From Bacteroidetes bacterium SW_9_63_38 (lineage in GTDB: Bacteria > Bacteroidota > Rhodothermia > Rhodothermales > Salinibacteraceae), in NCBI GenBank assembly GCA_003022435.1, contig PXUA01000003.1:1-64000 (forward strand): a DNA stretch of 64,000 nucleotides, given 5' to 3'. The position numbers and the translations under genes were made by a program. Below are positions 4,262-18,382 of this stretch, in pieces (position 1 is the stretch's first letter; every line of letters begins with the position of its first letter). A model generated the notes under the pieces. It searched no databases, had not been told where the DNA came from, and worked only from the letters and a program-made list of their open reading frames with translations.

Positions 4262-4321
4262 CGCGGCCCTCGCAGTGACGGCGGCGGGCGGGCTGTCGGA
4301 CACGTTCGGGAGAAGGGAGCA

Positions 4322-5525: not shown

Positions 5526-5763
5526 TTACGGCTCGATAAGCCACTCGTGTTCGACATCGGGGGCGTCGTATGTGGACCGCCGTTGCACCGGCACGCCGTC
5601 GACGTGGGAGACGATTCGGGCTTGAACGGCCGCGTGCTTCAGGCCGGCGTTGCGGATGGCCCGGGAGACGGCCGACTCCGATGTATCCGGCTAGGTCTTC
5701 CTGCGAGCCGTCGAAGTGATCGAACGCTCGTCGGGCCTCGACGGACAGTTCCTCGACATTCAT
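5526..5763 (-). pseudogene. Small HTH DNA-binding protein, frameshifted by an apparent 8-bp deletion
   Basis: From the ATG at 5763 the protein reads MNVEELSVEARRAF, then DHFDGSQEDLAGYIGV. It then continues only in another frame as ESAVSRAIRNAGLKHAAV, QARIVSHVDGVPVQRRS and APDVEHEWLIEP, ending at a stop at 5526. Joined, it is a roughly 80-aa protein whose QEDLAGYIGVSESAVSRAI segment is a good helix-turn-helix. The break lies at about 5671-5682. Restoring one extra copy of TCGGAGTC there repairs the frame and adds the expected Ser-Glu of the HTH turn, so loss of one copy of an 8-bp tandem repeat is the simplest explanation. Its operator-like palindrome lies just upstream. Confidence 0.6.
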
Positions 5764-5767
5764 TGAG

Positions 5768-5786
5768 TTGTGACGTCAGGTCACAA
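5768..5786. promoter_or_regulatory. Operator-like palindrome upstream of the HTH gene
   Basis: TTGTGAC and GTCACAA form 7-bp arms around a 5-bp spacer, only 4 bp before the ATG (minus strand) of the broken HTH gene. The position suits an autorepressor site. Confidence 0.45.
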
Positions 5787-5802
5787 AACACACAAAGAAA
5801 AG

Positions 5803-5827
5803 AAGCCCGCCGTGAAGCACGGGCTTT
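5803..5827 (-). terminator. Hairpin, candidate rho-independent terminator
   Basis: AAGCCCG (5803-5809) pairs with CGGGCTT (5820-5826). On the minus strand the hairpin is followed by a T-rich stretch (CTTTTCTTTG), so it would end transcripts coming from the right, ahead of the HTH gene. Confidence 0.45.
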
Positions 5828-6413
5828 ATGTCCTACTGCATTCGTCAGCGTAGCAAAATTGCCCCTCGGTGTGTCAAGGGAAAAACGTCACGGGACCATA
5901 AAATCAACAGGCGAACGGCTCCAGCTCTATGGACGGATGGCCCAGTTTCATCTGTCCTCGGTTCCTCGATCAATGCTCCAGATTCAAAAATGCTCGCAGA
6001 TGGTGATCCAGTGCCCGAATCCGTACCCCGAGCGCTCGAACATCGCCGAGGCGTTTTCAACCGACCTGAAAGCTGGAAGAGGCGAGGGGCCTTCGGCGAG
6101 CCGGCCGATCAGCCTGGTTCCACGGCCATTCTAACGCCTCCGAGATCGCCGGTGAACGGCGCTTGCCGATACGTGAATACGTTTGCACCGATCCTGGAAA
6201 TCTCAGATTTCCTAGATCGGTACCCTCCGCTTCTTGCATGCGGCTGCACACGGTCCCGGGAATCTAGGATTCCCAGGATTTAGGATCTCTAGCAATCTAG
6301 GATTCCCAGGATCTCAGATCCCCAAGATCTTGCCGGACGAGTCCGGCTGACCTCCAATCTTTTGGGGAAAATGGTGTACGTACGTTCTCACGGATCGGTA
6401 GAGGCGTTTTAGG
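5828..6413. other. Gene-free flank of the island with degraded coding traces
   Basis: About 590 bp without an intact gene. On the minus strand a short frame ending near 5992 reads NASAMFERSGYGFGHWITIC and looks like the C-terminal end of a lost protein; I do not recognise it. The right half carries the palindrome array listed separately. Confidence 0.35.
6196..6322. repeat. Array of short palindromes and a 19-bp direct repeat
   Basis: GGAAATC-TCA-GATTTCC (6196-6212), GGGAATC-TAG-GATTCCC (6258-6274) and GGATCT-C-AGATCC (6309-6321) are perfect palindromes of similar design. A 19-bp direct repeat beginning AATCTAGGATTCCCAGG occurs at 6261-6279 and 6294-6312. No gene overlaps the array. It could be a protein-binding cluster or hairpin-forming DNA beside the element boundary. 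Confidence 0.6.
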
Positions 6414-6433
6414 GGTGCCCGAGAGAGGACTCG
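6414..6433 (-). repeat. Short tRNA-Leu 3'-end copy (older or secondary att remnant)
   Basis: GGTGCCCGAGAGAGGACTCG is identical to the plus-strand sequence covering the 3' end of tRNA-Leu (17973-17992). Scattered further similarity (ACATGGCCCTC near 6462) suggests a decayed longer copy. It lies 125 bp outside the main att copy. Confidence 0.6.
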
Positions 6434-6538
6434 CCCCTCCCCGTGCCGATGGCTGTCAGCACACATGGCCCTCCCGGCACAGTCCCAAGAAACAGAAAGG
6501 CTCCGGACCGCAAGGTGGCGATCCAGAGCAGTTCAGCA

Positions 6539-6596
6539 GTGCCCGAGAGAGGACTCGAACCTCCACTCCCTGTAACGGGAACATCCCTCAACCATG
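6539..6596 (-). repeat. Distal attachment site: partial tRNA-Leu(GAG) duplicate
   Basis: Bases 6539-6584 match 17974-18019 exactly (46 bp: acceptor 3' strand, T arm, variable arm). After a 2-bp deletion, 12 more bases of the anticodon arm match (6585-6596). This is the displaced 3' part of the tRNA gene left at the far end of an element that integrated into tRNA-Leu. Confidence 0.85.
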
Positions 6597-6664
6597 TGTG
6601 GAGTTATCGATTATTGGCCTCAGACGATGGCAGACGCCGATATTGACGGCAGTAGGAAAATCCT

Positions 6665-6682
6665 TTGCCCAAGTATTGACCA
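6665..6682 (+). promoter_or_regulatory. Candidate left arm-type integrase site
   Basis: TTGCCCA (6665-6671) and TTGACCA (6676-6682) start 11 bp apart. The pair sits in a 34-bp stretch resembling 17834-17867 at the other end of the element. Paired direct boxes flanking the core at both ends are the pattern of arm sites bound by the N-terminal domain of tyrosine integrases. Confidence 0.5.
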
Positions 6683-6689
6683 TGAGTTC

Positions 6690-7955
6690 GCGCGGGGGTG
6701 ACTCTTAGAATAATTGAGGGGAACGTCCTCTGAGATTGTGAGCTTTCCTCGTATCGACTGGTATCGACGAAACCAAAGCGAGGTACTCTGCGCGACTACG
6801 TAGGGATCTCCCTCTTCGACGTGATGCAGTGACTCGAAGAAGGTTCACCTGTGCTCAAGCGCAGTGCAGGGGGCTGGACGCGAATCGCTGCGCCTCCTCC
6901 ACGTTGAGTGAGGTGCCATAACGACGACTGTGCCGCCTCCGGTAGCGACTACTGCCGTTGTGCTGGTGCCGACGAGCGGTGTGGCTAATGCAGGGGGCAA
7001 AGTCCAGGTACGAGGGACATGCGCAGGAAGGCCCACGAACGCGGACTGGCGATCTTTTTGCGCCGCCCCAACGAGCCGGCATGGCGGAAAGCAGTTGCGG
7101 AAGCGTTCGTGTAGCTGGGCCCGGGCCGAAACCGCCCCCGTTGAGGTTGGAAAGATCGCTGCCGCTTGGGGGATGGTGCTGCCTTTTCGACGCTCGCGCC
7201 CGCCCCTGCATCGGAGATGGGCGCTGCCCGCCCGGATGGCCGCCGACACACGCACCCCCTTGGTGCGGACCCTGCAAAGATGGATTACCTTCCCCGGTGG
7301 CCGCCGTGGGGCGCGTGCCCCCGAAGCGGCTTTTGCAGGGGAGCGCACCAGCACGGCCATGATCTTGGCGCTGTGCGACCGTAGCGAATGCGGAGTGGAG
7401 CGCTGCGCCCTGTGAGGCTGCACGACCGACAGGGTTCGGAGGGAGTCGCTGCCGTGAACACGATTGAACGAACCGCAGGGTCTACAGACGGGCACCGGCT
7501 ATTCAGAGGAGCACCGCAGGAATTGTGAGCGGAGAGGGGGACCGCCCCTATTGGGAGCACCGATGCTGATACGAGCACCCCTGAGCGCCCCGCGCGTGGT
7601 AGGGGGAAGCGCGGGGGGAGCGACGCCGCTTTGCACGTGCACCGCCACGATGATTGGTCTCCTCGATTGGCAGACATCGGCGCGGATGCGACGGGGTGCG
7701 AGTTACTCAACATGACGCCCCGGAGCGGGCTGGACCTTGCTGAGTAGCGAAGCGTAGGGACGCGCTGTGCTCAGATAGAGAGGGGTAAACCCATCGACGC
7801 GCACCCTGGGGCAAGCGGAGGGACCGCCTTTTTGTGTCATTCGCACGTGTGTGAGCCTCCGCAGCGGAATGGCGTCTCCAACGCTTGCTGTGGAGGAGGT
7901 GGGCAGACTGCCCAGGATCTGCCGTCCTTAATTGGTGGCCGGGCCGGGGGCTGGT
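6690..7955. other. Unexplained left part of the element, no convincing gene
   Basis: About 1.3 kb, GC-rich, with several overlapping open frames on both strands. None shows a recognisable domain or the acidic composition of the neighbours. The most protein-like piece is a 31-aa frame at 7019-7114 on the plus strand (MRRKAHERGLAIFLRRPNEP), too short to trust. The region may hold decayed genes or a non-coding RNA. Confidence 0.4.
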
Positions 7956-7959
7956 TCGT

Positions 7960-8018
7960 GTTGCACTGCGCAACATTTTTGTTGCGAATACAGAGATTGT
8001 TGTTTATTATGCAACAAT
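7960..8018. promoter_or_regulatory. AT-rich control region with TTG/CAA palindromes
   Basis: GTTGC-ACTGC-GCAAC (7960-7974) and ATTGTTG-N9-CAACAAT (7996-8018) lie in an unusually AT-rich patch upstream of the small-protein operon at 8095. Further TTG-type half sites lie between them and up to the start. It is likely promoter plus operator DNA. Confidence 0.45.
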
Positions 8019-8094
8019 AAGATTGTGAAACAAAGTTGTATGTCTTTCGGTTTGGAGGGGCGAATCAGATCTTGGACAGCCACGCCCAATTCTT

Positions 8095-8493
8095 ATGTCC
8101 TACGAGCAGAGAAAGGAGATATCACGACGCCATTCGGAGCCTGACCGGGACGCTATTGCCTCGTACGTTGCGCAAGGGTGCTCCTTCAAGGAAGCAGAGA
8201 CGGTTGAGAGGCTTGAGCGGAGGATTTGTTGCATCGAGGAGCTGAAGGCAGAGGAGCTGGCAACCGCAGAGGAGGAGCTGGAGCGTCGTCGTCTTGTCTC
8301 TCGTCTCGCTTTGCTGAACGGTACGACGCCGGCGAGGGAGAACGAGGCTGTCGCTTGGGAGTGCAGGTGCGGATGGTCGATCATTGCTTCGCCGTCACCG
8401 CCCGACGATGGCAACGTTGGACCTGCTCGCTGTCCTGAGTGTGATGCGTTTACTGCGAAGCCTACCACGATCACTAAGCCCATGAGCCCATAA
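8095..8493 (+). CDS. Hypothetical protein with C-terminal zinc-ribbon-like motif
   Basis: 132 aa. The N-terminal two thirds is charged and helical (SFKEAETVERLERRICCIEE, then KAEELATAEEELERRR), likely a coiled coil. The C terminus has CRCGWSIIAS, then GPARCPECDAF, a C-x-C plus C-x2-C arrangement typical of zinc ribbons. No family is recognised. It is the first gene of a three-gene run (8095-8852) inside the element, preceded by an AT-rich operator-like region. Small zinc-ribbon proteins are frequent in phages and satellites, often as transcription or DNA-binding accessories; that role is an inference here. Confidence 0.6.
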   Translation: MSYEQRKEISRRHSEPDRDAIASYVAQGCSFKEAETVERLERRICCIEELKAEELATAEEELERRRLVSRLALLNGTTPARENEAVAWECRCGWSIIASPSPPDDGNVGPARCPECDAFTAKPTTITKPMSP

Positions 8494-8663
8494 TTGAGGA
8501 ACGCTTCGTCCCCTGCATACGCTGTGAGGAAGAGACGCGACACGAGATTCGCGAAGGGGTGGACACGGGCCGGATTGAGTTCGTAGAGGGGGGATGCCAG
8601 AACTGTGGCCGCTGCGGGCGCGTTTGCACAGGCACGAGAAGCTGTCGCCGTACAATCTCGTAG
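8493..8663 (+). CDS. Small Cys-rich (zinc-finger-like) protein with a non-standard start or a -1 frameshift
   Basis: The frame runs from just after a stop at 8475 to the TAG at 8661. It encodes IEERFVPCIRCEEETRHEI, then EFVEGGCQNCGRCGRVC: two C-x2-C pairs and a C-x2-C-x5-C run that can bind zinc. No ATG, GTG or TTG opens this frame; only ATA (8490) or ATT (8493) is available. Alternatively, a -1 slip at CCCA just before the TAA of the upstream gene fuses the two proteins. The frame overlaps the upstream stop by one base. The Cys pattern makes a real coding region likely; the start is uncertain. Confidence 0.5.
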   Translation: MEERFVPCIRCEEETRHEIREGVDTGRIEFVEGGCQNCGRCGRVCTGTRSCRRTIS

Positions 8664-8675
8664 CAGACGCAGCCA

Positions 8676-8852
8676 ATGGAAAAGATTGAGGACGTAAACC
8701 GCACCCGAGCAGTACGCCTCGACGGTGTTTCCCCGGCACGCCAAGCCGATTTGATGGAATGCGTCACGCCGCCGGAGGGGACCGACCTGCTCGCTGTACA
8801 GAGGCAAAGCGATCCCACTCCGGTAGTCCTGGGGGGAATGACGATCGAGTAG
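8676..8852 (+). CDS. Small hypothetical protein, 58 aa
   Basis: ATG at 8676, 12 bp after the preceding stop; its TAG (8850-8852) directly abuts the stop of the convergent recombinase. The sequence (MEKIEDVNRTRAVRLDG, PEGTDLLAVQRQSDPTPVVL) is acidic at the N terminus and has no known motif. The tight spacing argues that it belongs to the same transcript as the two Cys-rich proteins upstream. Confidence 0.4.
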   Translation: MEKIEDVNRTRAVRLDGVSPARQADLMECVTPPEGTDLLAVQRQSDPTPVVLGGMTIE

Positions 8853-9416
8853 TTACAGCCCCTTCATGGCTTCCTCCAGTTCGCCGTCAACGATATGCGT
8901 GTAGATCATCGTCGTGGAGATATCGGAGTGACCGAGGGCCTTCTGGACCTTTCGAATGTTGCCGGTTTCTCTCAGAAGGCGCGTGGCGAAGGTGTGGCGT
9001 AGTGTGTGTGGACTGACGCGGTCGATCTCTGCGATCTCTGCTTTCTTCGCGTACCGCTTCACAGAGCGTCGCAAGTGTGACGTGTCCACCTTCGTTCCCT
9101 TCTTCGTCGGGAGCAAGAAATCCGATTCGGGCCGCCGGTCCATCCATTCCCCGATTCCGTCTCGAAGGTCGTTGCTGATCCAGAGCGTCCGATCTTTGGC
9201 GCCCTTCCCTTCCCGGACTACGATCTTGCCGGTGGGCATGTCGATGTGATCCGGTTCAAGGGAGACGACTTCCGCTGATCGGAGGCCCGCTTTGAGCATC
9301 AGCCGAATGAACAGATAGTCGCGGTGCGGGCCGAAATAGCGCTGATTGGGCTGTTCGAGAAGGTGTTCGGCTTCGTCGTCAGTGAGAATCTTGGGGAGCT
9401 TGTCAGGTCGGTTCAT
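8853..9416 (-). CDS. Tyrosine recombinase, catalytic domain only
   Basis: 187 aa from the ATG at 9416. It holds the whole catalytic domain of the phage-integrase/Xer fold: Arg in LKAGLRSAEVVSLE, Lys in VREGKGAKDRTLW, H-x2-R in SPHTLRHTFATRLL, His in LGHSDISTTM and the Tyr nucleophile in IYTHIVDGE. The N-terminal SAM-like core-binding domain (about 100 aa) is absent, so it is far shorter than XerC/XerD. It may act as a DNA invertase or resolvase-like enzyme, or be a relict. It is read toward the small-protein operon and sits in the middle of the element, away from the att sites, so it is probably not the integrase that inserted the element. Confidence 0.85.
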   Translation of the reverse strand: MNRPDKLPKILTDDEAEHLLEQPNQRYFGPHRDYLFIRLMLKAGLRSAEVVSLEPDHIDMPTGKIVVREGKGAKDRTLWISNDLRDGIGEWMDRRPESDFLLPTKKGTKVDTSHLRRSVKRYAKKAEIAEIDRVSPHTLRHTFATRLLRETGNIRKVQKALGHSDISTTMIYTHIVDGELEEAMKGL

Positions 9417-9453
9417 TGCTTTGGATCGAGTCGATTGGAGAGGAAGACCGATT

Positions 9454-9538
9454 GTCACGGTTTTATGTCTTTCCGTGACGCATTCACAATGAAAACCGAT
9501 GCAGGGCAGAATGCCAAGGAAAACGTGACGCATTCACG
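9454..9538. promoter_or_regulatory. Repeated GTGA-TCAC palindromes between divergent genes
   Basis: CGTGACGCATTCAC occurs twice as a 14-bp direct repeat (9474-9487 and 9524-9537), 50 bp apart. Each copy is itself a palindrome with GTGA and TCAC arms around CGCAT. GTCACGG (9454-9460) and CCGTGAC (9473-9479) form a further inverted repeat overlapping the first copy. They lie between the recombinase start (9416, minus) and the gene at 9630 (plus). Confidence 0.55.
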
Positions 9539-9629
9539 TAATAGCCTGTCTTGTGGATCCGAGATACGATCCGCTCGACGAATGGGTGCTGGGGGGAGCG
9601 GAAGTTCTTCCAAACGTTTGGTGGTTGCA

Positions 9630-9980
9630 ATGCGAGATATCGATGATCTTCCTCCGGATCAGTGTGTCCTGTGCGCTGCCGCCTCGGAGATGTGGGAGAT
9701 GCCTGCTGTTGACGACTGGGGCATTCCCCTCATCTACCGGGCTGGCGGCTGTTGGAGGGGTTTGCGGAACCGATACGGGGTGCGCTCCTCGCCTGACTCG
9801 ACGCTTTGGTACCTGATTCGGCGTGAGACGCAGGATCTCGTAGATGGGGAACCGCTCCAGTTCTGGGATGCGATCCTCCGCGTGAAGTTCTACGAGGAGT
9901 ACAGGACAGCTTCGCCTCGGCAGAGGCGTCCCTTCAAGGCCTGGATTCGCTCGAAGGTGGATCCCCCCTGGGAGGGGTAG
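9630..9980 (+). CDS. Hypothetical protein, 116 aa
   Basis: ATG at 9630 after a divergent promoter region; the frame is open further upstream but not protein-like. MRDIDDLPPDQCVLCAAA has a C-x2-C pair near the N terminus, and the rest is aromatic and charged (FWDAILRVKFYEEYR, PFKAWIRSKVDPPWEG). No family is recognised. It faces the 780-aa gene, with hairpins between the two stops. Confidence 0.5.
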   Translation: MRDIDDLPPDQCVLCAAASEMWEMPAVDDWGIPLIYRAGGCWRGLRNRYGVRSSPDSTLWYLIRRETQDLVDGEPLQFWDAILRVKFYEEYRTASPRQRRPFKAWIRSKVDPPWEG

Positions 9981-10096
9981 CCCCCCCTTGCCCTCGCGCG
10001 TCCCCAAAGCGCTCCCGGCCCGCCGCCGCGCCCCGCCCGGAGTAGTATATCCGTCCGCGTGTGGCTTTCAACCCCGTCTTGCCCATCTCGAAGTAA

Positions 10097-10136
10097 CACC
10101 CCGAAGGGGGGTGAAGATACTGCCCCCGTCCGGGGG
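10097..10136. terminator. Two GC hairpins between convergent genes
   Basis: CACCCC (10097-10102) pairs with GGGGTG (10108-10113), and CCCCC (10123-10127) with GGGGG (10132-10136). T-runs are weak on both strands; AAAATTT beside the second hairpin gives some TTTT on the minus strand. They probably separate the genes ending at 9980 and 10260. Confidence 0.35.
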
Positions 10137-10259
10137 GAAAATTTCGCGATGGGATTTCTGAACCCCAGCTGGGTGGATGCTTTCTCGTTCCCCTCTCACT
10201 GAACCTTCTGCTTTCCAGGCGCTCGACGTGGAGTGGGAGGAGAAAAAGATCTGAGGGAG

Positions 10260-12602
10260 TTACTGCCCCGCCTTCGGTATCCAGAAGTCCCGAATCTTTT
10301 CAGCCGCCTCTCGTGACGGTACGACGGTTTCGGCGGGTGCTTTCCGATTGGGGCCGATCACCTTCACGTCGTACTTCCCGTCCGGTCGCGGGACAATCTC
10401 AGCCGTATCCCCCTCCGCCACGTTCTTGATCCCCGCCGCCCGCAACTCTCGCCGGGCCCGGCGCTTGCGGGCTTTCTGGCGTTGCTGATCAACCGCCTCT
10501 GAGGCTGCCTCCCCAACCGCCGCCATTGACTCTTCGGCACGTTGCTGCCGGGCTTGCTCTTTCGCTCTGTCGGTGACAGAGCGGAAATCGTTCGGTCCCA
10601 TGACCACCTGCGCGTTCTCTCCCTGCTGCACGACGAGCGCGAAGTCCTCGTTGCTCTCCATCCGGCCCCGAAGCTGCTGCCGCTCCTCGTCGGACATATG
10701 CCCCAACTCCTCCATCGTCACCCGCTGCCGCTGGAGGTCCACCCCCTGCTCCTGCTCGTACTCGTTGAGCCGCTGCTCAACGCGCCGGACGCCCTGTGCC
10801 GTCTGATCCGGCTGTTCATCGGGTGCCGGCTGCTGCCCATCGGATGCACGTTGCTCGCCACCTGTGGAGTCGCTGGGGGCGCCGCGCAGCCCGTTCTTAC
10901 CCAGGAACGCCGAAAGCTTGCTGCCCGCCGAGCTTTGCTGGCCTCCAGACGCTTTACCACCACTCTGCCCCCCAGCCACCTGCGGGCTGCCTGGAGACGG
11001 TTGCCCCCCTCCAGGTGCTGGTTGCCCACCACCGGGCGACGGCTGCTGGCCGGGCGTGCCACCCTGAAAAGCCTGCGGGTATCGGGCCTTGAGATACCGG
11101 TTGGCCGGGTCCTCGGGGCCGGTGTACCAAGACGGTCGCTGTCGCCCCTGTCCGTCGGGCTTCGTCTGGGACGTAACGGCATTCAGGTACCGCTGGAACG
11201 GTTTAATCGCTTGCTCCACGATATCCGCGCTGTCCACGTCCGTCACTTTCGTGCTCTCAATGATGTCCCGCTTTTTCTTCATCGTCGAGACGAGGTTCTT
11301 GAGCCGCTGGGGCACCTCCCGCCCCGCCGACTCCAGCTTCTGAATTCGCCGCTCCGCGTCGGAGACTACCCGCCTGACTTGATCGGACAAGCTCACGCGC
11401 TGGGCCTCCAGATCCTTCAGGTAGCTCCGCTGCTCCCCGCTGGGGCTCTCGTACTCCGTGTCGCGCGAGGAAAACCAGCCATCTGTCTCGTCGTACTGCC
11501 GCTTGAGGTCCGTGAAACTACTGACCGACACGGCGAGATCTTGCATTGGCTGCGGCACCGTCGGCCCCTCTCCGCCTCCTTCCCCATTGACCGTGCGAGA
11601 AAGAGCGACCTTCTCCCCAATCATGCGGCGGATCTGCTCGTCGGAGGCGTCGGGGTACAGCTGCCGCGCCATGGACTCCACCCGGGGCCAGAGTTGCGGG
11701 TCGTCGCCGGCCTCCTTCACGAGGTCGTTGAACTGCTCGCGCAGGCTGTTTTGCTGGTCCACCCACGCAGAATACTCCTCGGCCTCCGCTTTCTTCTCGG
11801 CGGCGTCGAGGCGGGACTGCTGCTCGACGAGGCTCTGATACGCGCTCGCCAGATCGCCCCGTAGGCCCTGTTCTGCTTCGTAGCGGGCCCGCTTCGCTTC
11901 GCGCTCCCGCTTCGCGTTTTGCTGCTCCTCCTGCACGTCCAGCTCTGCCTTCCGCATCATGCGCTCCCGCTCGGCCTGCGCGTAGTTCTGCTCGCCGCTC
12001 CGCTCCAGTGCGTGGGCCTGCTGCCGTGCTTCGCGGGCAAGGCGCATGCTTTCCTGTGTGCCCGTATTGACCGGCGCTCCCGACACGGTCTTGAAAACTT
12101 CCGGGCCCATCATGTGCCAGAACGTCCGGAACATCGACCGCTCCATTTCTTTGCGATTCCGCTTTTTGAGTTCCTGAAGCTGCTGCCGCTGCTGCTCCGA
12201 TGCTTTTCGAAGGGTGCGTCGGTACGGCTCGTAGTTCACCTTCGTGGGGTCGTAGAGGCCTTCCGGCGGCTTCTCGTAGGCGGACTGGAGGAACCGGGCC
12301 TGCTGCTTCAGCCGCTCGTTCGAGATGCCGACCTTTCCGGGGTCCACGTTGAAGATGTCCATGCCTCCGTCCCCACTGTTCTCCGCCGCCCCACTTTCCG
12401 GCGGGTCGTCGGGCCCGTCGTTGCGGCCCGGACCCTGGTTCGCCCGGCTCTGGGTGGACGGGCCCGGGCTGGAGAAGGTCTGCCCCAGCACGTCGGGGAT
12501 CTCCATAACCGTTCCCGACTGCCGCCGGGAAGACGTGCCCGGCAGCGAGATGAACTCGGAGTCTTGGCTGTTTAGGTTCAGGCTCGGCGTGGGCATGGGC
12601 AT
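10260..12602 (-). CDS. Large Gln-rich coiled-coil protein of the element
   Basis: 780 aa from the ATG at 12602 (another ATG two codons on); the longer frame to 12794 adds only non-acidic low-complexity sequence. Residues 1-90 are Gly/Ser/Asp-rich, with a conserved-looking block around DIFNVDPGKVGISNERLKQQ. Residues about 100-270 form a long charged coiled coil (RKASEQQRQQLQELKKRNRK and similar heptads). Another helical region spans about 390-480. Then comes a Gly/Pro/Gln low-complexity linker (about 520-620), and a basic C-terminal part with RKRRARRELRAAGIKN. No enzymatic motif, signal peptide or TM segment. It could be a structural or DNA-transfer protein of a phage-like particle, or a filament-forming cytoplasmic protein. 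Confidence 0.65.
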   Translation of the reverse strand: MPMPTPSLNLNSQDSEFISLPGTSSRRQSGTVMEIPDVLGQTFSSPGPSTQSRANQGPGRNDGPDDPPESGAAENSGDGGMDIFNVDPGKVGISNERLKQQARFLQSAYEKPPEGLYDPTKVNYEPYRRTLRKASEQQRQQLQELKKRNRKEMERSMFRTFWHMMGPEVFKTVSGAPVNTGTQESMRLAREARQQAHALERSGEQNYAQAERERMMRKAELDVQEEQQNAKREREAKRARYEAEQGLRGDLASAYQSLVEQQSRLDAAEKKAEAEEYSAWVDQQNSLREQFNDLVKEAGDDPQLWPRVESMARQLYPDASDEQIRRMIGEKVALSRTVNGEGGGEGPTVPQPMQDLAVSVSSFTDLKRQYDETDGWFSSRDTEYESPSGEQRSYLKDLEAQRVSLSDQVRRVVSDAERRIQKLESAGREVPQRLKNLVSTMKKKRDIIESTKVTDVDSADIVEQAIKPFQRYLNAVTSQTKPDGQGRQRPSWYTGPEDPANRYLKARYPQAFQGGTPGQQPSPGGGQPAPGGGQPSPGSPQVAGGQSGGKASGGQQSSAGSKLSAFLGKNGLRGAPSDSTGGEQRASDGQQPAPDEQPDQTAQGVRRVEQRLNEYEQEQGVDLQRQRVTMEELGHMSDEERQQLRGRMESNEDFALVVQQGENAQVVMGPNDFRSVTDRAKEQARQQRAEESMAAVGEAASEAVDQQRQKARKRRARRELRAAGIKNVAEGDTAEIVPRPDGKYDVKVIGPNRKAPAETVVPSREAAEKIRDFWIPKAGQ

Positions 12603-13036
12603 GGAGGGGGATGTCCAGAAAGAATGTCGATTACTCAACGGTCGCGGGGGGGGCGTGGTCACGAATTTGCGGCGCGAGAATGGAGGGGCTTCCAGGTCGG
12701 GGGGGTAGGCCTCTGCATAACAGATGTAATCAGCCGTGTGGAGGGGGGCATGGGAGGTTTTCCCCCTGTTTGTGGTCGCGTGGGGGGAAAGCACGGGGGC
12801 GCGGGTATACCCTCTGTGATGGAGTCACACGAGTAGATCCTCGTTCGTCCCCCGGGTGTGATGGGTCACAGGTCCGTGCATACCATTCTCTTACACCTGG
12901 TCGGATTGTGGAGGGGGACTTCGGGTGAAGCATGATGTTTTGGGGCTGTGAAGGTGGGGCCATGTGCCCCTGTTACGTGGGGGGTGACCCCGCTCTGCGT
13001 GTTGTTCAGACGCGATTCGTTGGGCGTGCGGGCGCG
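12603..13036. other. Gene-free, G-rich control region with two TGTGA-TCACA palindromes
   Basis: 434 bp between the HNH gene and the 780-aa gene. TGTGA-TGGAG-TCACA (12815-12829) and TGTGA-TGGG-TCACA (12857-12870) are near-identical palindromes 28 bp apart, good candidates for a shared regulator site. G-runs are unusually frequent on the plus strand. No gene is seen. Confidence 0.45.
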
Positions 13037-13441
13037 TCAGGTCGCGACGGCCCGGTTGTGTCGCGTCGTGTGTTCGCTCAGTGACAGTATCTCCAAGTTA
13101 TTGAGGCGATTATCTGTCGGATCCCCATTTGTATGGTGCACGACCATTTTCGAAGGGATTGGGCCTCTATGGCTGTGCCAGATGAGGCGGTGGACGAGCC
13201 ACTTTTCTTCTTTCCCATCTCGATTGAGACCGATGCGACGATGTTTCGTGCGCTTCCTGTGTCGAGTCGGTGTAAGCAGGGTGGGACGCTCCCCATGTAG
13301 TGAAACGACCTGCCCCTCTTCTGACACGAGATACGTATCTTCGAAGGGGGGTGGAGCTGGTTTCCAGATGACATCTCCTTCACCCGTACCGGCCTCGGTG
13401 GGAAGATCCTGCGCACTCGCGTTGTCCTGCTGGTCTGACAT
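13037..13441 (-). CDS. HNH homing-type endonuclease
   Basis: 134 aa. The N-terminal half has a NUMOD4-like element (YLVSEEGQVVSLHGERP), then a basic strand pair (RKRTKHRRIGLNRDGK). An HNH core follows: WLVHRLIWHSHRG, then MVVHHTNGDPTDNRLNNLEI, where HH-x-N-G and NRL-x-NLE are the metal- and DNA-contacting motifs, ending SEHTTRHN. This is the architecture of phage-borne free-standing HNH endonucleases that cut DNA and spread by homing; HNH proteins of this size also help phage DNA packaging. It lies between the ATPase and the 780-aa gene on the same strand. Confidence 0.85.
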   Translation of the reverse strand: MSDQQDNASAQDLPTEAGTGEGDVIWKPAPPPFEDTYLVSEEGQVVSLHGERPTLLTPTRHRKRTKHRRIGLNRDGKEEKWLVHRLIWHSHRGPIPSKMVVHHTNGDPTDNRLNNLEILSLSEHTTRHNRAVAT

Positions 13442-13490
13442 TGTTCGTCATGGGTCTGTGAGATCTATCGTTGAGTGCGCGGATTAGGAA

Positions 13491-13607
13491 TCACGACCGA
13501 TCACGATGCTCTTCAGCGGTCGTGAAATGAGTCTCGAAAATCAGTCTTCAGCGGCGCTCAGGGCCGTTCATGATTCACGATCCCTTATAATCGTGAAATC
13601 GTGAATC
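13491..13607. repeat. Iteron-like cluster of six TCACGA boxes
   Basis: TCACGA occurs at 13491, 13501 and 13575, and its reverse TCGTGA at 13520, 13591 and 13599, in an AT-richer patch. The last copies form the perfect inverted repeat GATTCACGAT (13572-13581) / ATCGTGAATC (13598-13607), with tandem ATCGTGAA units at 13590 and 13598. It lies just downstream of the RepA-like ATPase and could be a replication origin, an operator or, in part, a terminator. Confidence 0.55.
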
Positions 13608-13614
13608 GTCGATT

Positions 13615-14808
13615 CTAGAAGGATGCGTCCGACTCGTATTTCGCCTTTGCAGGGAGCACTCCCTCGCCTTCTGCGCTCACCACGTCGTCGCTCTGTCGGA
13701 GAGCGGTGAGATGGTTGCGGACTGTACCGACGGCCACTGAGGTGCACCCGTCTCTCTCGTCGCGCCATTCCACGACATTCTCCGGGAGTACCGCTCCTTC
13801 GAATGTCTCATACAGCTTCTTCACGGCAGTGAGCGTCACGCCCTCCGAGGACAGATCTGAGAGAAGGTCAGCGGCCCGCTCGTCGGCTTCATCGATATGC
13901 TCGAAAGTCACAGCGTCTTCCTCAAAGGTCGTGGCGTAGTAGAGACGGGCATCTCCTGCGTCGAAGTTCGACTTCTCCTGCTGGATGACGTATCCGCCCG
14001 TGTCGGCCTTGGCCAGCGTCAGAGAGGAGCGAGCGGCGTTGCGTTTGAAAACGGAGCCGAACGCTCGGGCTTTGGAAGCGGAGCTCCGGGCCGTAGAATG
14101 CGAGACATGATCGATCGCGAGTGTCGTGGGCCACTGCCGGATCTGCTGGGCGATGGGGACGAAGTCGGACTGGTCTTTGATGTCTCCAGCAGCGCCCATC
14201 GTCAGGGAGTCGAGCACGACGAAGTCAATGTCGAGCCGATCCACGTACTCCAGAACCTTGATGTGATGATCGTCGGTCCCGAGGGGATGATGAGGGCGGG
14301 TATAGAAGAGCCGGTGCCGGAGCGCTTCGTCATGGGCGCCCAGTCCCATGCCGGCAGCGACTCGCCAGACACGCCGCCGCTGCTCATCCTCGTCGAGTTC
14401 ATGGTCGATGTAGAGGACGCGTCCGCGATCCACGCCCCGGCCCAGGAAAGGTTGGCCGCTGGCGATGCAGAGGGCGAGATGGAGCGCAAGAAAGCTCTTC
14501 CCTGTTCCTCCATCCGCTATGAGCATCGTCAGGTGGCCCTCCGGGACGAGCCCGGCGACGAACCACTGGAGCGGATCCGGGCGCTCGAAGTCGTAGAGGG
14601 GAACTACCCCTTCCGGTAACTTACGCTTCGTGTGCTCGCGGTACAACTTTTCCCACCGCTCCGTAGACATTGCGCCCCGGTCCTCCAAAGCACTCAGACG
14701 CCTCTCGATCTCCTCGACTGATAGTGAGCTGGGATTTGCAACTGGCTCACCATTGGTAGACGAGACAGTTGAGACATGGCCGTTTGTTTGGACTGAGGGG
14801 CTACTCAT
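13615..14808 (-). CDS. RepA-like AAA ATPase (RecA-fold, replication-type)
   Basis: 397 aa from the ATG at 14808. Walker A is LIADGGTGKSFLALHLAL (about residue 100), and Walker B-like strands are RVLYIDHELDEDEQRRRV and DFVVLDSLTMGAAGD. The Q/H region is TLAIDHVSHSTARSSASKAR. This is the AAA_25/RepA hexameric-helicase-like family seen in plasmids, phages and satellites (compare RSF1010 RepA). A C-terminal segment from about 310 looks like a winged helix (TSVAVGTVRNHLTALRQSDD). Its start overlaps the preceding HTH gene by 8 bp (ATGAGTAG), indicating translational coupling. It likely drives replication of the excised element, perhaps at the repeats downstream. Confidence 0.8.
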   Translation of the reverse strand: MSSPSVQTNGHVSTVSSTNGEPVANPSSLSVEEIERRLSALEDRGAMSTERWEKLYREHTKRKLPEGVVPLYDFERPDPLQWFVAGLVPEGHLTMLIADGGTGKSFLALHLALCIASGQPFLGRGVDRGRVLYIDHELDEDEQRRRVWRVAAGMGLGAHDEALRHRLFYTRPHHPLGTDDHHIKVLEYVDRLDIDFVVLDSLTMGAAGDIKDQSDFVPIAQQIRQWPTTLAIDHVSHSTARSSASKARAFGSVFKRNAARSSLTLAKADTGGYVIQQEKSNFDAGDARLYYATTFEEDAVTFEHIDEADERAADLLSDLSSEGVTLTAVKKLYETFEGAVLPENVVEWRDERDGCTSVAVGTVRNHLTALRQSDDVVSAEGEGVLPAKAKYESDASF

Positions 14809-15103
14809 GAGAGCCGCCCTCCCGCTCCGCTCGGGACCGAACGAATGCGTTGAGTGTGTCGATGTGGAAGAGCACTCGGTTCCGGATCCGTATCGGGCAG
14901 AGGTCTCCCTCAGCAACGACCGTGTTCAGGGTCCGGACCGAGAGGCGCAAATACTCTGCTGCCTCTTCGCGGTTCAAAAGCGGAGATTCGGGCGTTCGGC
15001 CCAGTGCGTCGATCTTGGCGCGTAGAGCTGCCATCTCGACCTGGAGGCTCTCCAGATCGTCGGTGGTCAGGATCTTGCTCCCGTCGCCGCCGTTTTCTAT
15101 CAT
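14801..15103 (-). CDS. Helix-turn-helix (excisionase/MerR-like) DNA-binding protein
   Basis: 100 aa from the ATG at 15103. The first half is a short coiled coil (LESLQVEMAALRAKIDAL). The second half is an HTH_17-type winged helix: LLNREEAAEYLRLSVRTLNT, then CPIRIRNRVLFHIDTLNAFV. Such proteins are excisionases or copy-control regulators in mobile elements. It is cotranscribed and coupled with the RepA-like ATPase, so control of replication is a reasonable guess. Confidence 0.75.
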   Translation of the reverse strand: MIENGGDGSKILTTDDLESLQVEMAALRAKIDALGRTPESPLLNREEAAEYLRLSVRTLNTVVAEGDLCPIRIRNRVLFHIDTLNAFVRSRAEREGGSHE

Positions 15104-15191
15104 TGTACTGTCTATTCTGTGCCGATCCCGGCTCAGAAATCCCGCCCGTCCTCGTGCAGCAACACGGGGATGGGCTTCTCTGGGTGCGCAC

Positions 15192-15232
15192 AAAAAATGG
15201 CGGCGCCTCCGGGCCGGAACGGAGACGCCGCC
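15192..15232 (-). terminator. Strong rho-independent terminator
   Basis: GGCGGCGCCTCCG (15199-15211) pairs with CGGAGACGCCGCC (15220-15232) with one mismatch. On the minus strand it is followed by ATTTTTTG (15191-15198 on plus). It lies downstream of the 312-aa gene and upstream of the HTH-ATPase pair, so it insulates the two units. Confidence 0.75.
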
Positions 15233-15338
15233 TGTGCGCGAAGCCGCCTGGATCGGCGGGTCCTAAAATCTGATGAGCGACCGTCCGGCCTCCGGTTCGG
15301 GGGCTGTATGCGGAGCCCAAAGAGGCCGTTCAGGTCTC

Positions 15339-15374
15339 AGATCTCAGATGATTTCAGATGCTCAACTGAGATCT
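15339..15374. repeat. Inverted repeat over the stop of the 312-aa gene
   Basis: AGATCTCAG (15339-15347) and CTGAGATCT (15366-15374) are perfect 9-bp arms. Further TCAGAT copies lie between them. The motif resembles boxes in the 6196-6322 array. Confidence 0.45.
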
Positions 15375-16300
15375 CCGTACTCCTTCGTGTAGCCGATCAC
15401 GTTCTCAATTACTTCACGCAATGGGCCAGTCTTTCCCTGCCTCTCGGAGGCCCAACAATCGGTTTGTTTCAGCCATCTAATGACTGCCCCATTGCTGTAA
15501 CGCTCATCTCTTTCTCGCTCCTCGGCTACTACTTGGCCAGCATGGCGATAGAACGTCTCCCTATTTTCCAACATCCATCCTGGTAGACCATCTTCGAAGA
15601 CTTGCATTTCCTCGATGAGGTCAGTTCCAATCAGGATCACCGCTTCGTGACTGGCACCACCGACATTCGGTGGATGCTCCTCCTTCTGTTTCGAGATGCA
15701 CTTTCTTGTCAGTTCCAGAAGCGGACGAGCGTGCTGCAAGACCTGATCGAGAATTAGGAGATCGGCGTGCAGATGAATGACGTGCCGCGTGTGCTCGATA
15801 ATCCACTCTTTCGCCTCTTCGAAGCTCTGCTCAGCGTCCTCGTACAGTCGACCTTCTGACGTGTCGGGGGGCAACTCGATGTCTCGGAGATCGAGTTCAG
15901 CGGTGCCCTCCCCGCCCGGTGAGGCAATTTTGTTGAGGCGTGCAGCTACGCCTCGAAGTACGTCGTCGTCTTCCAGTGGTCTATCGAATGCCCCACTCTT
16001 CAGTCTGACACCTTTCTCGTGCTCCCCAAGCTGTGACTCAACGGATGCCTCCCGCTTCCTTTTTTGCTCTGCTTCGAACCATTCTCTTCTCTGATCCGGA
16101 GGCATTTGGAGAAGTCGAATCACCTTCTGATTGACCTCTCCGAAGCGTTTCTGGATTTCCTCTTCGATCTCGTCGCGCTGTTCATGCAGTGCTTGCCACC
16201 CATTGTGACGGCCCTTTCCATCGAGCACAGCGAGACTACGTCGAACAAGTTCTCTTTCTCGCTCCTCGTTGAAAAGCGGTAGCTGAACGTATTCTTCCAT
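15362..16300 (-). CDS. Hypothetical protein, 312 aa, unknown function
   Basis: ATG at 16300; acidic, mostly helical, no signal peptide or TM segment. It begins MEEYVQLPLFNEERERELVR and has a charged helical region (EIEEEIQKRFGEVNQKVIRL). A middle acidic block (LDLRDIELPPDTSEG) leads to a helix rich in His (IIEHTRHVIHLHADLLILDQ). The C-terminal part ends with a possible winged region (NGAVIRWLKQTDCWASE). No catalytic motif is recognised. It is divergent from the excisionase-like gene with a small operator between, and ends at a strong terminator, so it is a separate transcription unit: the position where satellites often carry a regulator or a defence/cargo gene. Confidence 0.65.
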   Translation of the reverse strand: MEEYVQLPLFNEERERELVRRSLAVLDGKGRHNGWQALHEQRDEIEEEIQKRFGEVNQKVIRLLQMPPDQRREWFEAEQKRKREASVESQLGEHEKGVRLKSGAFDRPLEDDDVLRGVAARLNKIASPGGEGTAELDLRDIELPPDTSEGRLYEDAEQSFEEAKEWIIEHTRHVIHLHADLLILDQVLQHARPLLELTRKCISKQKEEHPPNVGGASHEAVILIGTDLIEEMQVFEDGLPGWMLENRETFYRHAGQVVAEERERDERYSNGAVIRWLKQTDCWASERQGKTGPLREVIENVIGYTKEYGDLS

Positions 16301-16351
16301 CGTCTCTCACCAGCCGTGTTCATTTCGCGCACACCTTCATCACACACAAAT

Positions 16352-16366
16352 GGAACAAAGTGTTCC
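16352..16366. promoter_or_regulatory. Palindrome in the divergent promoter region
   Basis: GGAACA-AAG-TGTTCC lies between the 312-aa gene (minus) and the excisionase-like gene (plus). It is a likely operator for a dimeric regulator. Confidence 0.45.
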
Positions 16367-16418
16367 CTTTTCTGTGGCCTCGACCAACTCGTACAGAGAA
16401 CAACCTCGATCCCACGCT

Positions 16419-16637
16419 ATGCCGGACATCAGCGACGTACTCTCCTTCACCGAAGCCGCCGAAATTAAAGACTGCGGGCGGAATACCCTGTACCGGGCCG
16501 CCGACGACGGGCGGATCAACACCGTTGAGGTAGGAGGCCGGCGCATGATCGTCCAGAACGAAAATTGGGAGCAGTTTGAGTCGGAGCTGACCGGCCATCG
16601 GGCACGGCAGCAGGCCGATACGCCCGATTACGAGTAG
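16419..16637 (+). CDS. Excisionase-like HTH protein
   Basis: 72 aa from the ATG at 16419. DVLSFTEAAEIKDCGRNTLY is a helix-turn-helix, followed by RAADDGRINTVEVGGRRMIV, the wing of HTH_17/AlpA-Xis-type proteins. It lies 48 bp upstream of the integrase on the same strand, the usual xis-int order. It probably binds near the att arms and controls integration versus excision. Confidence 0.75.
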   Translation: MPDISDVLSFTEAAEIKDCGRNTLYRAADDGRINTVEVGGRRMIVQNENWEQFESELTGHRARQQADTPDYE

Positions 16638-16685
16638 ACCGCCCCCCATTCATTCGATTCCGCGCACACATCCTCCGCATACTCC

Positions 16686-17816
16686 ATGCCCTCGATGCGA
16701 AAGCAGAGCGGGCGCTACTATGCCCGCTTCTACGACCGATCTCGATCCCCCAAACGAAAGAGCTGGCCCCTTCGCACGCACCGAAAGGATGTCGCCAGTC
16801 GGAAGCTCACCGAACTGAAACGTGCCTACGAAGAAGGGGAGTTCGACCCGTGGGACGGTGGGTGGCAGCGGGGGAATCGTACCGTGCCAGAGGCGGCAGA
16901 GGCCTTTCTCGAAACGAAGAAGGAAGCGGGGCTACGGCCCAACACGATCGAGGTGTACCACTACGTCCTGAAGGGATTGAAGGAGCACACGCCGCCGGGT
17001 GTCATGGTGCGCGACGTGGCCCCGGAGCACGTCCGGGCGTACGTGCACGAGCCGAAGGAGGTGGCTGGTGAGGAAGAGTCCGTGAGCAACGCGACGAAGC
17101 GACACCGGCACAGTCACCTCTCTACCTTTTTTCGCTGGGCCATCGACCAGGGCTGGGCCGACGAGAACCCGGTCGAGGAGGTCAAGAAGCCACGCAAGGA
17201 GGAAACCAAGAAAGCATTTCTCAGCCCCGATGACGTTGAGAAGGTGTTGGCCGCCGTGGATGCGTACCGGAACCTGCGCCTGGACGAGCCGGGGCCGACG
17301 CCGAACGACGACTGGTTGAAACAGATGATCATCGTTGCCGTCTCGACGGGCCTCCGACGGGGCGAGCTTCTGAACCTGCGGTGGATGGATGTGGACTTTG
17401 AGACCGGGCGCCTCTACGTCCGCAGCCGAGAGGACTTCAAGGCGAAGAACGGAGACGAGCGAGCCGTTCCCCTCGTTGGGGATGCACGTAGCAAACTCGA
17501 AGAGCTGAATGACTGTCGCTCACCAGACCCTACAGATCACGTCTTTTTCGATGACCGAGGCGAGCCGCCGAAGCCTGATCGGGTGACGCGACGATTCAAG
17601 TTCTACGTCCGAAAAGCGAAGCTCCCGCACCGGGAGGACCTATCATTTCACTCGTGTCGGCACACCACGGCGTCCTGGCTCACGATGAACGGTGCCCCGC
17701 GAAAAGCGATCTCCGAGATTCTGGGACACACGACGACTCGGATGACGGAGCGGTACAGTCACCTCTCACCGGGCGTAGAAGAAGAGGCGATGAAAGACAC
17801 ATTCGGCAGCACGTAG
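16686..17816 (+). CDS. Tyrosine site-specific integrase of the element
   Basis: 376 aa, ATG at 16686. A short N-terminal basic AP2-like arm-binding region (MRKQSGRYYARFYDR) is followed by a core-binding SAM-like domain (about 60-165: AAEAFLETKKEAGLRPNTIE). The catalytic domain has Arg in STGLRRGELLNLRW, Lys in REDFKAKNGDERAVPL, H-x2-R in SFHSCRHTTASWL, His in LGHTTTRMTERY, and Tyr in that last motif. The stop is 158 bp from the tRNA-Leu 3' end, the usual place for an integrase using that tRNA. The direct TTGCCCA boxes right after the stop are candidate arm sites. Confidence 0.9.
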   Translation: MPSMRKQSGRYYARFYDRSRSPKRKSWPLRTHRKDVASRKLTELKRAYEEGEFDPWDGGWQRGNRTVPEAAEAFLETKKEAGLRPNTIEVYHYVLKGLKEHTPPGVMVRDVAPEHVRAYVHEPKEVAGEEESVSNATKRHRHSHLSTFFRWAIDQGWADENPVEEVKKPRKEETKKAFLSPDDVEKVLAAVDAYRNLRLDEPGPTPNDDWLKQMIIVAVSTGLRRGELLNLRWMDVDFETGRLYVRSREDFKAKNGDERAVPLVGDARSKLEELNDCRSPDPTDHVFFDDRGEPPKPDRVTRRFKFYVRKAKLPHREDLSFHSCRHTTASWLTMNGAPRKAISEILGHTTTRMTERYSHLSPGVEEEAMKDTFGST

Positions 17817-17842
17817 GGATGTTTGCCAGGCGTGGGAAATCT

Positions 17843-17860
17843 TTGCCCACATATTGCCCA
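17843..17860 (+). promoter_or_regulatory. Candidate right arm-type integrase site
   Basis: TTGCCCA occurs at 17843-17849 and 17854-17860, starting 11 bp apart, between integrase stop and tRNA-Leu. The surrounding 34 bp resemble the boxes at 6665-6682 near the other end, in the same orientation and with the same 11-bp spacing. Confidence 0.55.
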
Positions 17861-17920
17861 CGCAGTTGCTTTTTCTCTCAGCAGGTGAAATGAAAGAACC
17901 TGCGAGAACGTGAAGCGCAA

Positions 17921-17969
17921 AAAGCAAAGCCCGCCTCAATCGCCGGTTTCAGGCGCTGAAGCGGGGTTT
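17921..17969 (-). terminator. Candidate terminator after tRNA-Leu
   Basis: AAAGCCCGC (17926-17934) can pair with GCGGGGTTT (17961-17969) with one mismatch. Inside it, CGCC (17941-17944) pairs with GGCG (17952-17955). On the minus strand it is followed by GCTTTTTGC, suiting termination of the tRNA-Lys/tRNA-Leu transcript. Confidence 0.45.
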
Positions 17970-17974
17970 TGCGG

Positions 17975-18060
17975 TGCCCGAGAGAGGACTCGAACCTCCA
18001 CTCCCTGTAACGGGAACATGGCCCTCAACCATGCGCGTCTACCAATTCCGCCACTCGGGC
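17975..18060 (-). tRNA. tRNA-Leu(GAG)
   Basis: 86 nt. The acceptor stem GCCCGAG pairs with CTCGGGC. The anticodon arm CATGG-TTGAGGG-CCATG gives anticodon GAG. The long variable arm (TTCCCGTTACAGGGAG) is typical of a class II tRNA, and the T arm contains GGTTCGAGTCC. CCA is not encoded. Its 3' half is the integration target of the neighbouring element, which regenerated it. Confidence 0.95.
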
Positions 18061-18068
18061 AGAACAGT

Positions 18069-18146
18069 GTCGAGTTGCGAGTGTCGAATGCCGAGTGAGA
18101 GCAAGATGTTTCAGTATTCGACACCCGACATTCGACACTTGCAAAT
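18069..18146. repeat. Intergenic palindromic repeat, copy 1
   Basis: TTGCGAGTGTCGAATG on one side and CGACATTCGACACTTGC on the other form an imperfect inverted repeat between the two tRNA genes. Closely related sequence occurs at 22780-22862. Confidence 0.6.
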
Positions 18147-18150
18147 GTTG

Positions 18151-18224
18151 TGACCCCGGATGGATTCGAACCATCGACTCACGGATTAAAAGTCCGTTGC
18201 TCTGCCAAGCTGAGCTACGGGGCC
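18151..18224 (-). tRNA. tRNA-Lys(TTT)
   Basis: 74 nt. Acceptor GGCCCCG pairs with CGGGGTC (one G-T); D arm AGCTCAGCTTGGCAGAGC; anticodon arm ACGGA-CTTTTAA-TCCGT gives anticodon TTT; T arm GATGGTTCGAATCCATC. It lies 90 bp upstream of tRNA-Leu on the same strand, probably in one transcript. Confidence 0.95.
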
Positions 18225-18382
18225 GAGCACGCTAAATATGCGATTCTATGTATGCCCCCACCGCACATCTGTTCGCGGGGGCGGCCCACACGGCTTTGAA
18301 TCGTTTGTGAGTCCGGGATCGGCACGACTGAGGGGCTCGCACCGGGCCGAGGGGCCGCGGACGGACAGGGGCGTGCGGAGGG

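Follow-up and report, generated by a model that had tools for sequence, protein, structure and literature searches.

An integrative element at tRNA-Leu(gag) in a Salinibacter-group genome, its probable need for an outside vehicle, and its relatives at other leucine tRNA genes

An 11.4-kb unit at tRNA-Leu(gag) in Bacteroidetes bacterium SW_9_63_38 is probably a replicating integrative 'hitcher' element, belonging to a tRNA-Leu family of the Salinibacter group and needing an outside vehicle to move. The stretch analyzed, referred to here as the window, covers positions 1–64,000 of contig PXUA01000003.1. The original prediction, made from sequence alone, suggested a phage satellite or integrative plasmid of no known family. 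The integrase, excisionase-like and replication genes place the unit in that neighborhood, but it is no one-off: four related elements are located at tRNA-Leu genes (cag and caa) in its own genome and in three other Salinibacter-group genomes.

The unit is bounded by a perfect 46-bp direct repeat on the plus strand (6539–6584 and 17974–18019), as originally proposed, and this repeat is the 3′ part of tRNA-Leu(gag). The proximal att core lies within the tRNA gene itself (17973–18060, minus strand; called by ARAGORN and Rfam), which is the target gene that the element appears to restore, and the distal core is a copy of its 3′ part. With an integrase gene at one end, att cores derived from a tRNA 3′ part, and an empty site in relatives, the unit has the features of an island placed by a tRNA-targeting tyrosine integrase. 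A search of the window for a 19-mer of the repeat, allowing up to three mismatches, identified three sites (6415, 6539, and 17974, compared with 0.07 expected), all without mismatches. The copy at 6415–6433 (plus strand), found in both the direct-repeat and 19-mer searches, is part of an older, degenerate att site. Adjoining the restored tRNA is a terminator-like hairpin (17917–17972, judged by eye) that is like the flanks of tRNA-Leu(cag) and unlike the gag flank of three empty sites. Rfam identified two tRNAs and nothing else over 2500–20000.

Empty sites were present at three of the seven tRNA-Leu(gag) loci retrieved, in congeners where a permease gene lies 117–136 bp from the tRNA. The corresponding gap in the window is 15.5 kb, comprising the 11.4-kb element and about 3.9 kb of an older insert. 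The total insertion, from about 2.5 to 17.97 kb by empty-site comparison, is larger than the element. A remnant of one or more earlier inserts at the same tRNA lies outside the unit at 2600–6538 (empty-site comparison and Pfam), containing an OmpA gene, a NADAR gene, and an interrupted terminator. The original prediction had named two observations that would speak against it, namely these genes at the same place in relatives without the 46-bp repeat, or a known prophage with the whole set. Instead, the insert is missing in its entirety from the three congeners, and the set was found in no record of phages or viral contigs.

Genes for integration, excision, and replication are arranged divergently within the unit. 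The integrase gene, int (16686–17816, plus strand), encodes a 376-aa tyrosine integrase (PF00589, 2.9e-31; phrog_1, 2.6e-69). Preceding it is an HTH_17 excisionase-like gene, xis (16350–16637, plus strand), with matches to Pfam (5.4e-5), TIGR01764 (1e-4), and phrog_66 (1.7e-3); the first two are below their cut-offs, with PF12728 scoring 23.8 bits against a cut-off of 27. On the minus strand, a second HTH_17 gene (14801–15193, with a start perhaps at 15103; Pfam 6e-8, PF12728 33.3 bits, above the same cut-off) encodes a likely regulator and is followed by a gene for a RepA-like AAA_25 ATPase/helicase (13615–14916, minus strand; Pfam 1e-31). The sole solved-structure match of this protein is the plasmid helicase RepA (PDB 1g8y, E 1e-3), and relatives were identified in 3 of 99 other genomes (E 1e-20). 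The replication ATPase of the original prediction is thus present, but the repeats described with it are not borne out as an iteron array; no such array or recognizable replication origin was found.

Related elements share much of this arrangement. We define a Salinibacter tRNA-Leu int-xis // HTH-Rep family by a related int, an adjoining xis, and a divergent HTH gene with a replication gene. The window element belongs to it, with identities to other members of 55–58% for int, 49–62% for xis, and 41–51% for the HTH regulator, the last across three tRNA-Leu elements. The same divergent plan is common to the C7 element of its own genome and to elements in genomes G009 and G012, each of which has att copies at both ends. 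The integrase is 58% identical to that of the G012 element and 55% to that of G009, while fragments of the C7 integrase give 43–62%; across four related elements or remnants, xis identity is 46–62%. The element at tRNA-Leu(caa) in genome G010 falls outside the family, as neither xis nor HTH was found there. The replication genes of the window element and of the three sisters sharing its plan belong to replication helicase/primase families, with DUF3987 (PF13148) in the sisters compared with AAA_25 RepA in the window. Cargo also varies between elements; for example, one sister has proteins matching models of Druantia- and DISARM-like helicases. A more distant island on contig 16 of G069, another Rhodothermales genome, likewise has int divergent to HTH-RepA (38% identity for RepA, 32% for int, and 31% for HTH) but has no xis match. 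A NikA-like mobilization gene follows its RepA relative, and PLD, Mrr, macro-domain, and NOV_C proteins are also neighbors.

The two ends of the element carry putative integrase arm-type sites. On the plus strand, TTTGCCCAAGTATTGACCA is located at the distal end (6664–6682; identified as an 11-bp-spaced direct repeat and in an end-pairing matrix), and TTTGCCCACATATTGCCCA at the proximal end, directly past int (17842–17860; identified by pattern search and the same matrix). The pattern occurs only at these two ends, compared with zero expected from 100 shuffles, for a pattern that was written after the ends had been seen. Five elements were compared in this way. Four of them carry their own pair of 11-bp-spaced repeats at both ends, and in each of these the left and right ends agree with one another at 16–18 of 19 bases; none of 60 mononucleotide shuffles exceeded 14. 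The window element pairs at 16 of 19 bases, compared with 15 for the best foreign pair, which is the smallest margin among the four matched elements. The C7 element has mismatched ends and a broken int. An apparent chimera in the same genome was also flagged by the end motifs.

Much of the remaining content appears to be cargo. An HNH_3 homing-type endonuclease gene (13037–13441, minus strand) is supported by PF13392 (1.1e-16) and the PADLOC 'homing endonuclease' model (2.6e-11), with a weak NUMOD4 match (0.009); together with int and xis, it agrees with the original prediction. The 780-aa (778 aa here) and 312-aa proteins named there are also present. Neither has a profile match: PHROGs gave nothing up to E 0.1, NCBIfam nothing up to 0.01, and Pfam nothing below 0.07. 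The 778-aa protein (10260–12596, minus strand) has a Gly/Pro/Gln-rich linker and is predicted to be largely helical. A single-sequence AlphaFold model contains a helix at 181–296 but has a mean pLDDT of 58, and Foldseek searches with it against BFVD and PDB gave nothing at E ≤1e-3; we therefore make no claim about its fold. Homologs among 100 genomes were confined to its own genome, with up to nine best candidates considered in each. A search of 395 genomes of the phylum added one weak match of 111 residues (E 6e-4), and is a weak negative since only the best two candidates at most were considered per genome. Viral contigs, genome contigs, and plasmids gave no homolog of this protein, and phages only matches of E 9 or worse. 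The 312-aa protein (15362–16300, minus strand) was found in 1 of 100 genomes, its own, and in none of the other 99; it matched nothing among PDB sequences, phage matches were at chance level, and its predicted structure has a pLDDT of 48 from a two-row alignment. One pairwise test with a 313-aa protein of the G009 element gave E 1e-3 over 26 aa, which is only suggestive of a positional counterpart. On these comparisons, both proteins are orphans without an informative homolog.

Two further reading frames lie toward the distal end. The original gene list overlooked a second, catalytic-only tyrosine recombinase of 187 aa (8853–9416, minus strand; profile matches). It is of a Salinibacter plasmid type, with 68.6–70.7% identity to genes on four Salinibacter plasmids and relatives of 62–74% identity at six places in genomes G003, G004, and G010. 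Plasmid NC_007678.1 (35,505 bp) is the source of the 68.6% match; comparison of window positions 1–18200 with G003 contig 2, taken to be this plasmid, gave no further shared gene, only a match of int to the same recombinase and a short weak match beside it. On two plasmid-size contigs, copies of the last ∼95 bp of the recombinase gene lie within 3 kb downstream. The idea that the enzyme targets its own 3′ end was dropped for the window element, as a blast search with that end of the gene turned up no other copy there. The 132-aa protein originally proposed does correspond to an ORF (8095–8493, plus strand), but it is a doubtful gene that is absent from codon-score calls, which also miss the profile-supported HNH gene, and it had one weak match (E 1e-3) outside its own genome among 60 searched. 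About 2.2 kb (6.6–8.85 kb) has no codon-score call. Together with the second recombinase, this gap raises the possibility that part of the unit could be decaying.

Absence of virion and transfer genes was part of the original prediction, and it holds. A Pfam and PHROGs scan of every ORF of 60 aa or more overlapping 6539–18019, 73 in total, identified no capsid, terminase, portal, relaxase, or other conjugation family, and so neither the virion genes that mark a prophage nor the relaxase that marks an ICE or IME. For 64 of these ORFs, matches up to E 0.01 consisted of one repressor PHROG (6e-5) and one unnamed PHROG (0.006). As no transfer machinery is recognizable, the element probably moves with a helper; the particle of a phage, a conjugation apparatus, or the uptake of DNA could serve. 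Capsid or relaxase families that are not yet known would escape profile searches, so the element may conceivably be autonomous, and the 778-aa protein could be structural. We propose that Int would be directed by arm-type sites of its own at the two ends and would recombine the 46-bp core with the 3′ portion of the tRNA-Leu(gag) gene, returning a 3′ end and terminator to that gene. The HTH_17 protein adjoining int would steer excision, and the divergent HTH_17-RepA module would start replication in the circle. The HNH endonuclease, 778-aa protein, and short recombinase may be cargo or accessory functions that vary between elements.

Different vehicles can be suggested for such an element. The reading as a plasmid that integrates, or as an integrative mobilizable element, has close to an even chance of being correct; the element would be driven by RepA and would spread either through conjugation functions supplied in trans or through transformation. 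It is consistent with the structural match to plasmid RepA, the plasmid-type recombinase, the NikA-like gene in the G069 island, and the presence of comEC and comF in Salinibacter ruber strains (PMC6060240). Nevertheless, the unit lacks a relaxase family and iterons by the searches above, and int had no match at E 1e-20 in 72,556 plasmid records. The ATPase domain of RepA matches 691 phage records but 7 plasmid records at E 1e-3, from collections that differ in make-up, and none of the 691 matches at least 80% of the protein. This count runs against a plasmid and toward a phage, but it was not used to choose a vehicle because the collections differ. The G012 Rep matches 41 phage records. That the unit is a prophage in decay, or a genomic island that no longer moves, is unlikely. 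Tandem remnants at the same tRNA, the distal region devoid of codon-score calls, and the damaged C7 copy would fit with decay, but int, xis, HTH, and RepA are all open, the att cores are identical, the end motifs match, and PHROGs reveal no remnants of virion genes.

A phage satellite resembling the PICMIs of Vibrionaceae is possible, though we regard it as tentative; here the integrase, AlpA/Xis-type HTH_17 protein, and replication protein would excise and amplify the element on phage infection, and a helper phage would package it, with cargo that may include anti-phage functions. According to PMC10803314, PICMIs have a similar backbone of integrase, small excisionase-type HTH regulator, and replication gene, are like the window element in having no capsid-remodeling genes, and are detected by a model that calls for an integrase (with PF00589 as one accepted profile), an AlpA match to PF05930 or PF12728, a DUF3987 or DUF5906 primase, and fis. 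The C7, G009, and G012 sisters have int, DUF3987, and relatives of both HTH_17 proteins of the window (identified by that likeness), and the Druantia and DISARM matches in one sister would suit anti-phage cargo. The window element itself has an integrase and a PF12728 regulator (14801–15193), but has AAA_25 RepA in place of a DUF3987/DUF5906 primase, lies at tRNA-Leu(gag) and not at fis, carries two orphan proteins, and is 11.4 kb compared with about 6 kb (8 copies in ∼49 kb). By these features it is not a PICMI, while the gene triad of its sisters resembles one. Furthermore, no helper is known for it, and viral contigs gave no relative of the 778-aa protein, 312-aa protein, RepA, int, G012 Rep, or int alignment. 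A bolder proposal, and a quite improbable one, is a new Rhodothermota lineage of phage satellites in which Rep is freely swapped between DUF3987 and RepA, integrases have private arm-site addresses, and the 778-aa protein is a particle-directed factor, acting in packaging, as a scaffold, or in ejection, by which a helper phage would be redirected.

Islands of related character have been described in S. ruber. As presented in the parts of PMC6060240 and PMC2800850 consulted, strain-specific islands of horizontally transferred genes are similarly flanked by tRNAs, repeats, and XerD or phage-related recombinases, but no unit that combines att sites and end motifs with a shared int // Rep backbone is defined there. 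Among literature retrieved in part on Salinibacter phage satellites, S. ruber tRNA genomic islands, and arm sites, no description of the tRNA-Leu family was met, and a literature search pairing Salinibacter with phage satellite found nothing.

Considered as a family of hitcher elements, what had been a single odd island becomes a comparative system, with swappable replication modules, differing cargo, and leucine tRNA sites. The putative private addresses help to pair up ends where insertions lie in tandem and have decayed, a situation in which the att copies by themselves leave the pairing ambiguous. If it is true that each integrase reads only its own address, this would suggest how islands that share one type of tRNA avoid excising each other.

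The element at tRNA-Leu(gag) is a real mobile element and is probably intact. In the tRNA search, the tRNA gene was placed at 17973–18060 on the minus strand, where a tRNA-Lys gene adjoins it. The 3′ part of tRNA-Leu provides the proximal att core, a stretch of 46 bases (17974–18019) with a perfect copy at 6539–6584, as the original prediction had it for both repeat and coordinates. A 19-mer of the att core, with up to three mismatches, is found at three places in the 64 kb (6415, 6539, and 17974) and nowhere else, against 0.07 expected; the copy at 6415 is a third, degenerate one, beyond the predicted pair. Short stretches lying between a pair of att copies resemble each other at two different tRNA-Leu loci, at 6434–6471 in the window and at 380–413 of L042, a locus on a second contig (C7) of the same genome.

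Integrase (int; PF00589, 2.9e-31; 16686–17816) and a small HTH_17 protein scoring below the Pfam cut-off (16350–16637) are both read toward the tRNA. In the opposite direction run two orphans, one of 312 aa and one of 778 aa, and four genes with profile support: an HTH_17 regulator, an AAA_25 RepA-like ATPase, an HNH_3 endonuclease (matched weakly by NUMOD4 as well), and a short recombinase. The gene list proposed originally is sound, except that it overlooked this second tyrosine recombinase at 8853–9416; the repeats it placed at the replication gene were searched for and no repeat array was found there. No capsid, terminase, portal, or relaxase family was matched (Pfam, PHROGs) by any of the 73 ORFs that overlap 6539–18019 and are 60 aa or longer. 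A codon score picks up most genes of the element and misses the HNH gene, so the region 6.6–8.85 kb cannot be proved empty by it.

Seven tRNA-Leu(gag) loci (L028–L034) and five tRNA-Leu(cag) loci (L035–L039) of congeners were compared, the amino-acid permease gene lying outside the fetched stretch at three of the seven. From the 5′ end of this gene to tRNA-Leu(gag) the distance is 134, 117, and 136 bp in genomes G003, G007, and G004, and 2.1 kb in G010, with an int fragment and an excisionase-like gene (xis) inside. In the window (permease gene at 1169–2503) it is 15.5 kb, which, compared with the empty sites, points to an older insert of ∼3.9 kb (2.6–6.54 kb) besides the 11.4-kb unit. The five tRNA-Leu(cag) loci hold an int relative in two cases, an int fragment in one, and neither in two. 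A NADAR-domain gene (4941–5387; PF08719, 3.3e-21) lies in the remnant of the older insert. Separately, a non-coding, MITE-like repeat of ∼240 bp (6164–6402), its ends imperfect inverted repeats as judged by eye, interrupts an apparent tRNA-element terminator, whose halves lie at 6133–6163 and 6403–6414 (by eye against L029 near 3515–3545). This repeat has 53 matches in its own genome, 22 in G008, one in G007, and none in 13 other genomes searched.

An int search of 28 genomes gave matches at E 1e-40 or better in 14, the source genome included. Four further tRNA-Leu elements were studied closely: that on C7 (cag; 7.8 kb between att copies; int broken) and those of G009 (cag; 29.3 kb), G012 (cag; 8.1 kb), and G010 (caa; 14.7 kb). 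Identity to the window proteins is 58% (G012), 55% (G009), 43% (G010), and 43–62% (C7 fragments) for int; 62% (G012), 56% (C7), and 49% (G009) for xis; and 41–51% across G012, C7, and G009 for the HTH protein. Comparison with the window proteins found neither xis nor HTH in the G010 element, so it has in common with the window only int, the end layout, and the short recombinase. The replication gene in G009, G012, and C7 is DUF3987, not the RepA of the window, relatives of which occur in 3 of 99 other genomes searched. In another genome (G069) the divergent plan of int opposite HTH-RepA is seen again, next to NikA-like, PLD, Mrr, and macro-domain genes. The cargo of the G009 element (L040/L041) includes a macro-domain protein and proteins matched by the Druantia DruE and DISARM DrmD models; the G010 caa element carries a protein of DNA polymerase III alpha type that contains an intein and a LAGLIDADG domain (L062, 4486–7926). 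Behind the G012 element, a block (L061, 8982–19335) that is probably a tandem insertion holds a gene set that by eye looks like metal efflux (RND), and a further remnant of int, which has an end motif of its own. No description of these related elements was met in the literature on Salinibacter genomic islands, tRNA-Leu, or phage satellites.

A direct repeat with 11-bp spacing is found just inside each end of the window element: TTTGCCCAAGTATTGACCA at 6664, and TTTGCCCACATATTGCCCA at 17842, where it directly follows the stop codon of int. A search pattern for it, composed after the ends were seen, matches only at these two positions. The G012, G009, and G010 elements have the same layout with different motifs, one site or cluster per unit end; in 44 kb of control sequence, one of five motif patterns matched once and four not at all. 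When five left ends were compared with five right ends over 19 positions, own pairs agreed at 16–18 in four elements, foreign pairs among these four at no more than 15, and 60 mononucleotide shuffles reached 14; the window element has the smallest margin of the four (16 versus 15). These motifs support 6539–18019 being one unit. Arm-type sites are a feature of lambda-type integrases, and by analogy we read the motifs as putative sites of this kind. Within the C7 element (L042, 414–8209) the two ends agree at 12 of 19 positions. They agree better with ends of other elements, the left one with the right end of G012 at all 19 positions and the right one with the left end of G009 at 18, so the C7 element is apparently a chimera, assembled from two types of element.

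The second recombinase (187 aa, catalytic-only in the profile search, opposite to int) is 68.6–70.7% identical to genes on four Salinibacter plasmids and 62–74% identical to relatives at six places in three congeners; the G010 caa element has one of these copies, broken, at its distal end. This recombinase of plasmid type suggests that plasmid DNA entered the distal part of these elements. The last ∼95 bp of its gene recur as a direct repeat within 3 kb on two plasmid-size Salinibacter contigs (L084, 9342–9436 and 11163–11733; L086, 13902–13996 and 16892–17458), as if the 3′ end of the gene were an insertion site there.

Site-specific integration and excision driven by Int/Xis, combined with autonomous replication and with transfer through a helper, would explain every part of the element save the orphans. 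Whether it is called a satellite or an integrative plasmid, the vehicle is the sole difference. We place an integrative plasmid or IME slightly ahead: the one PDB match of RepA is the plasmid helicase RepA (E 1e-3), and this and the plasmid-type recombinase lean this way. The RepA ATPase domain leans the other way, with matches in 691 phage records versus seven plasmid records (80% coverage in none), toward a phage satellite resembling the Phage-Inducible Chromosomal Minimalist Islands (PICMI) of Vibrionaceae, a reading placed slightly behind. The PICMI model asks for a triad of int, HTH_17-like, and DUF3987 genes (PMC10803314), and the sister elements hold a triad like it. However, DUF3987 is absent from the window element and fis is the site of none of the five, so the window element is not classed as a PICMI.

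Searches of genomes, viral contigs, phages, and plasmids brought up no convincing relative of the 778-aa protein; because they were seeded with exact peptides and scored only a few candidates in each genome, they may have missed distant relatives. The predicted structure of this protein is too poor for use. The general kind of this element is already known, and the parts worth following are its private end addresses and its pair of orphan proteins.
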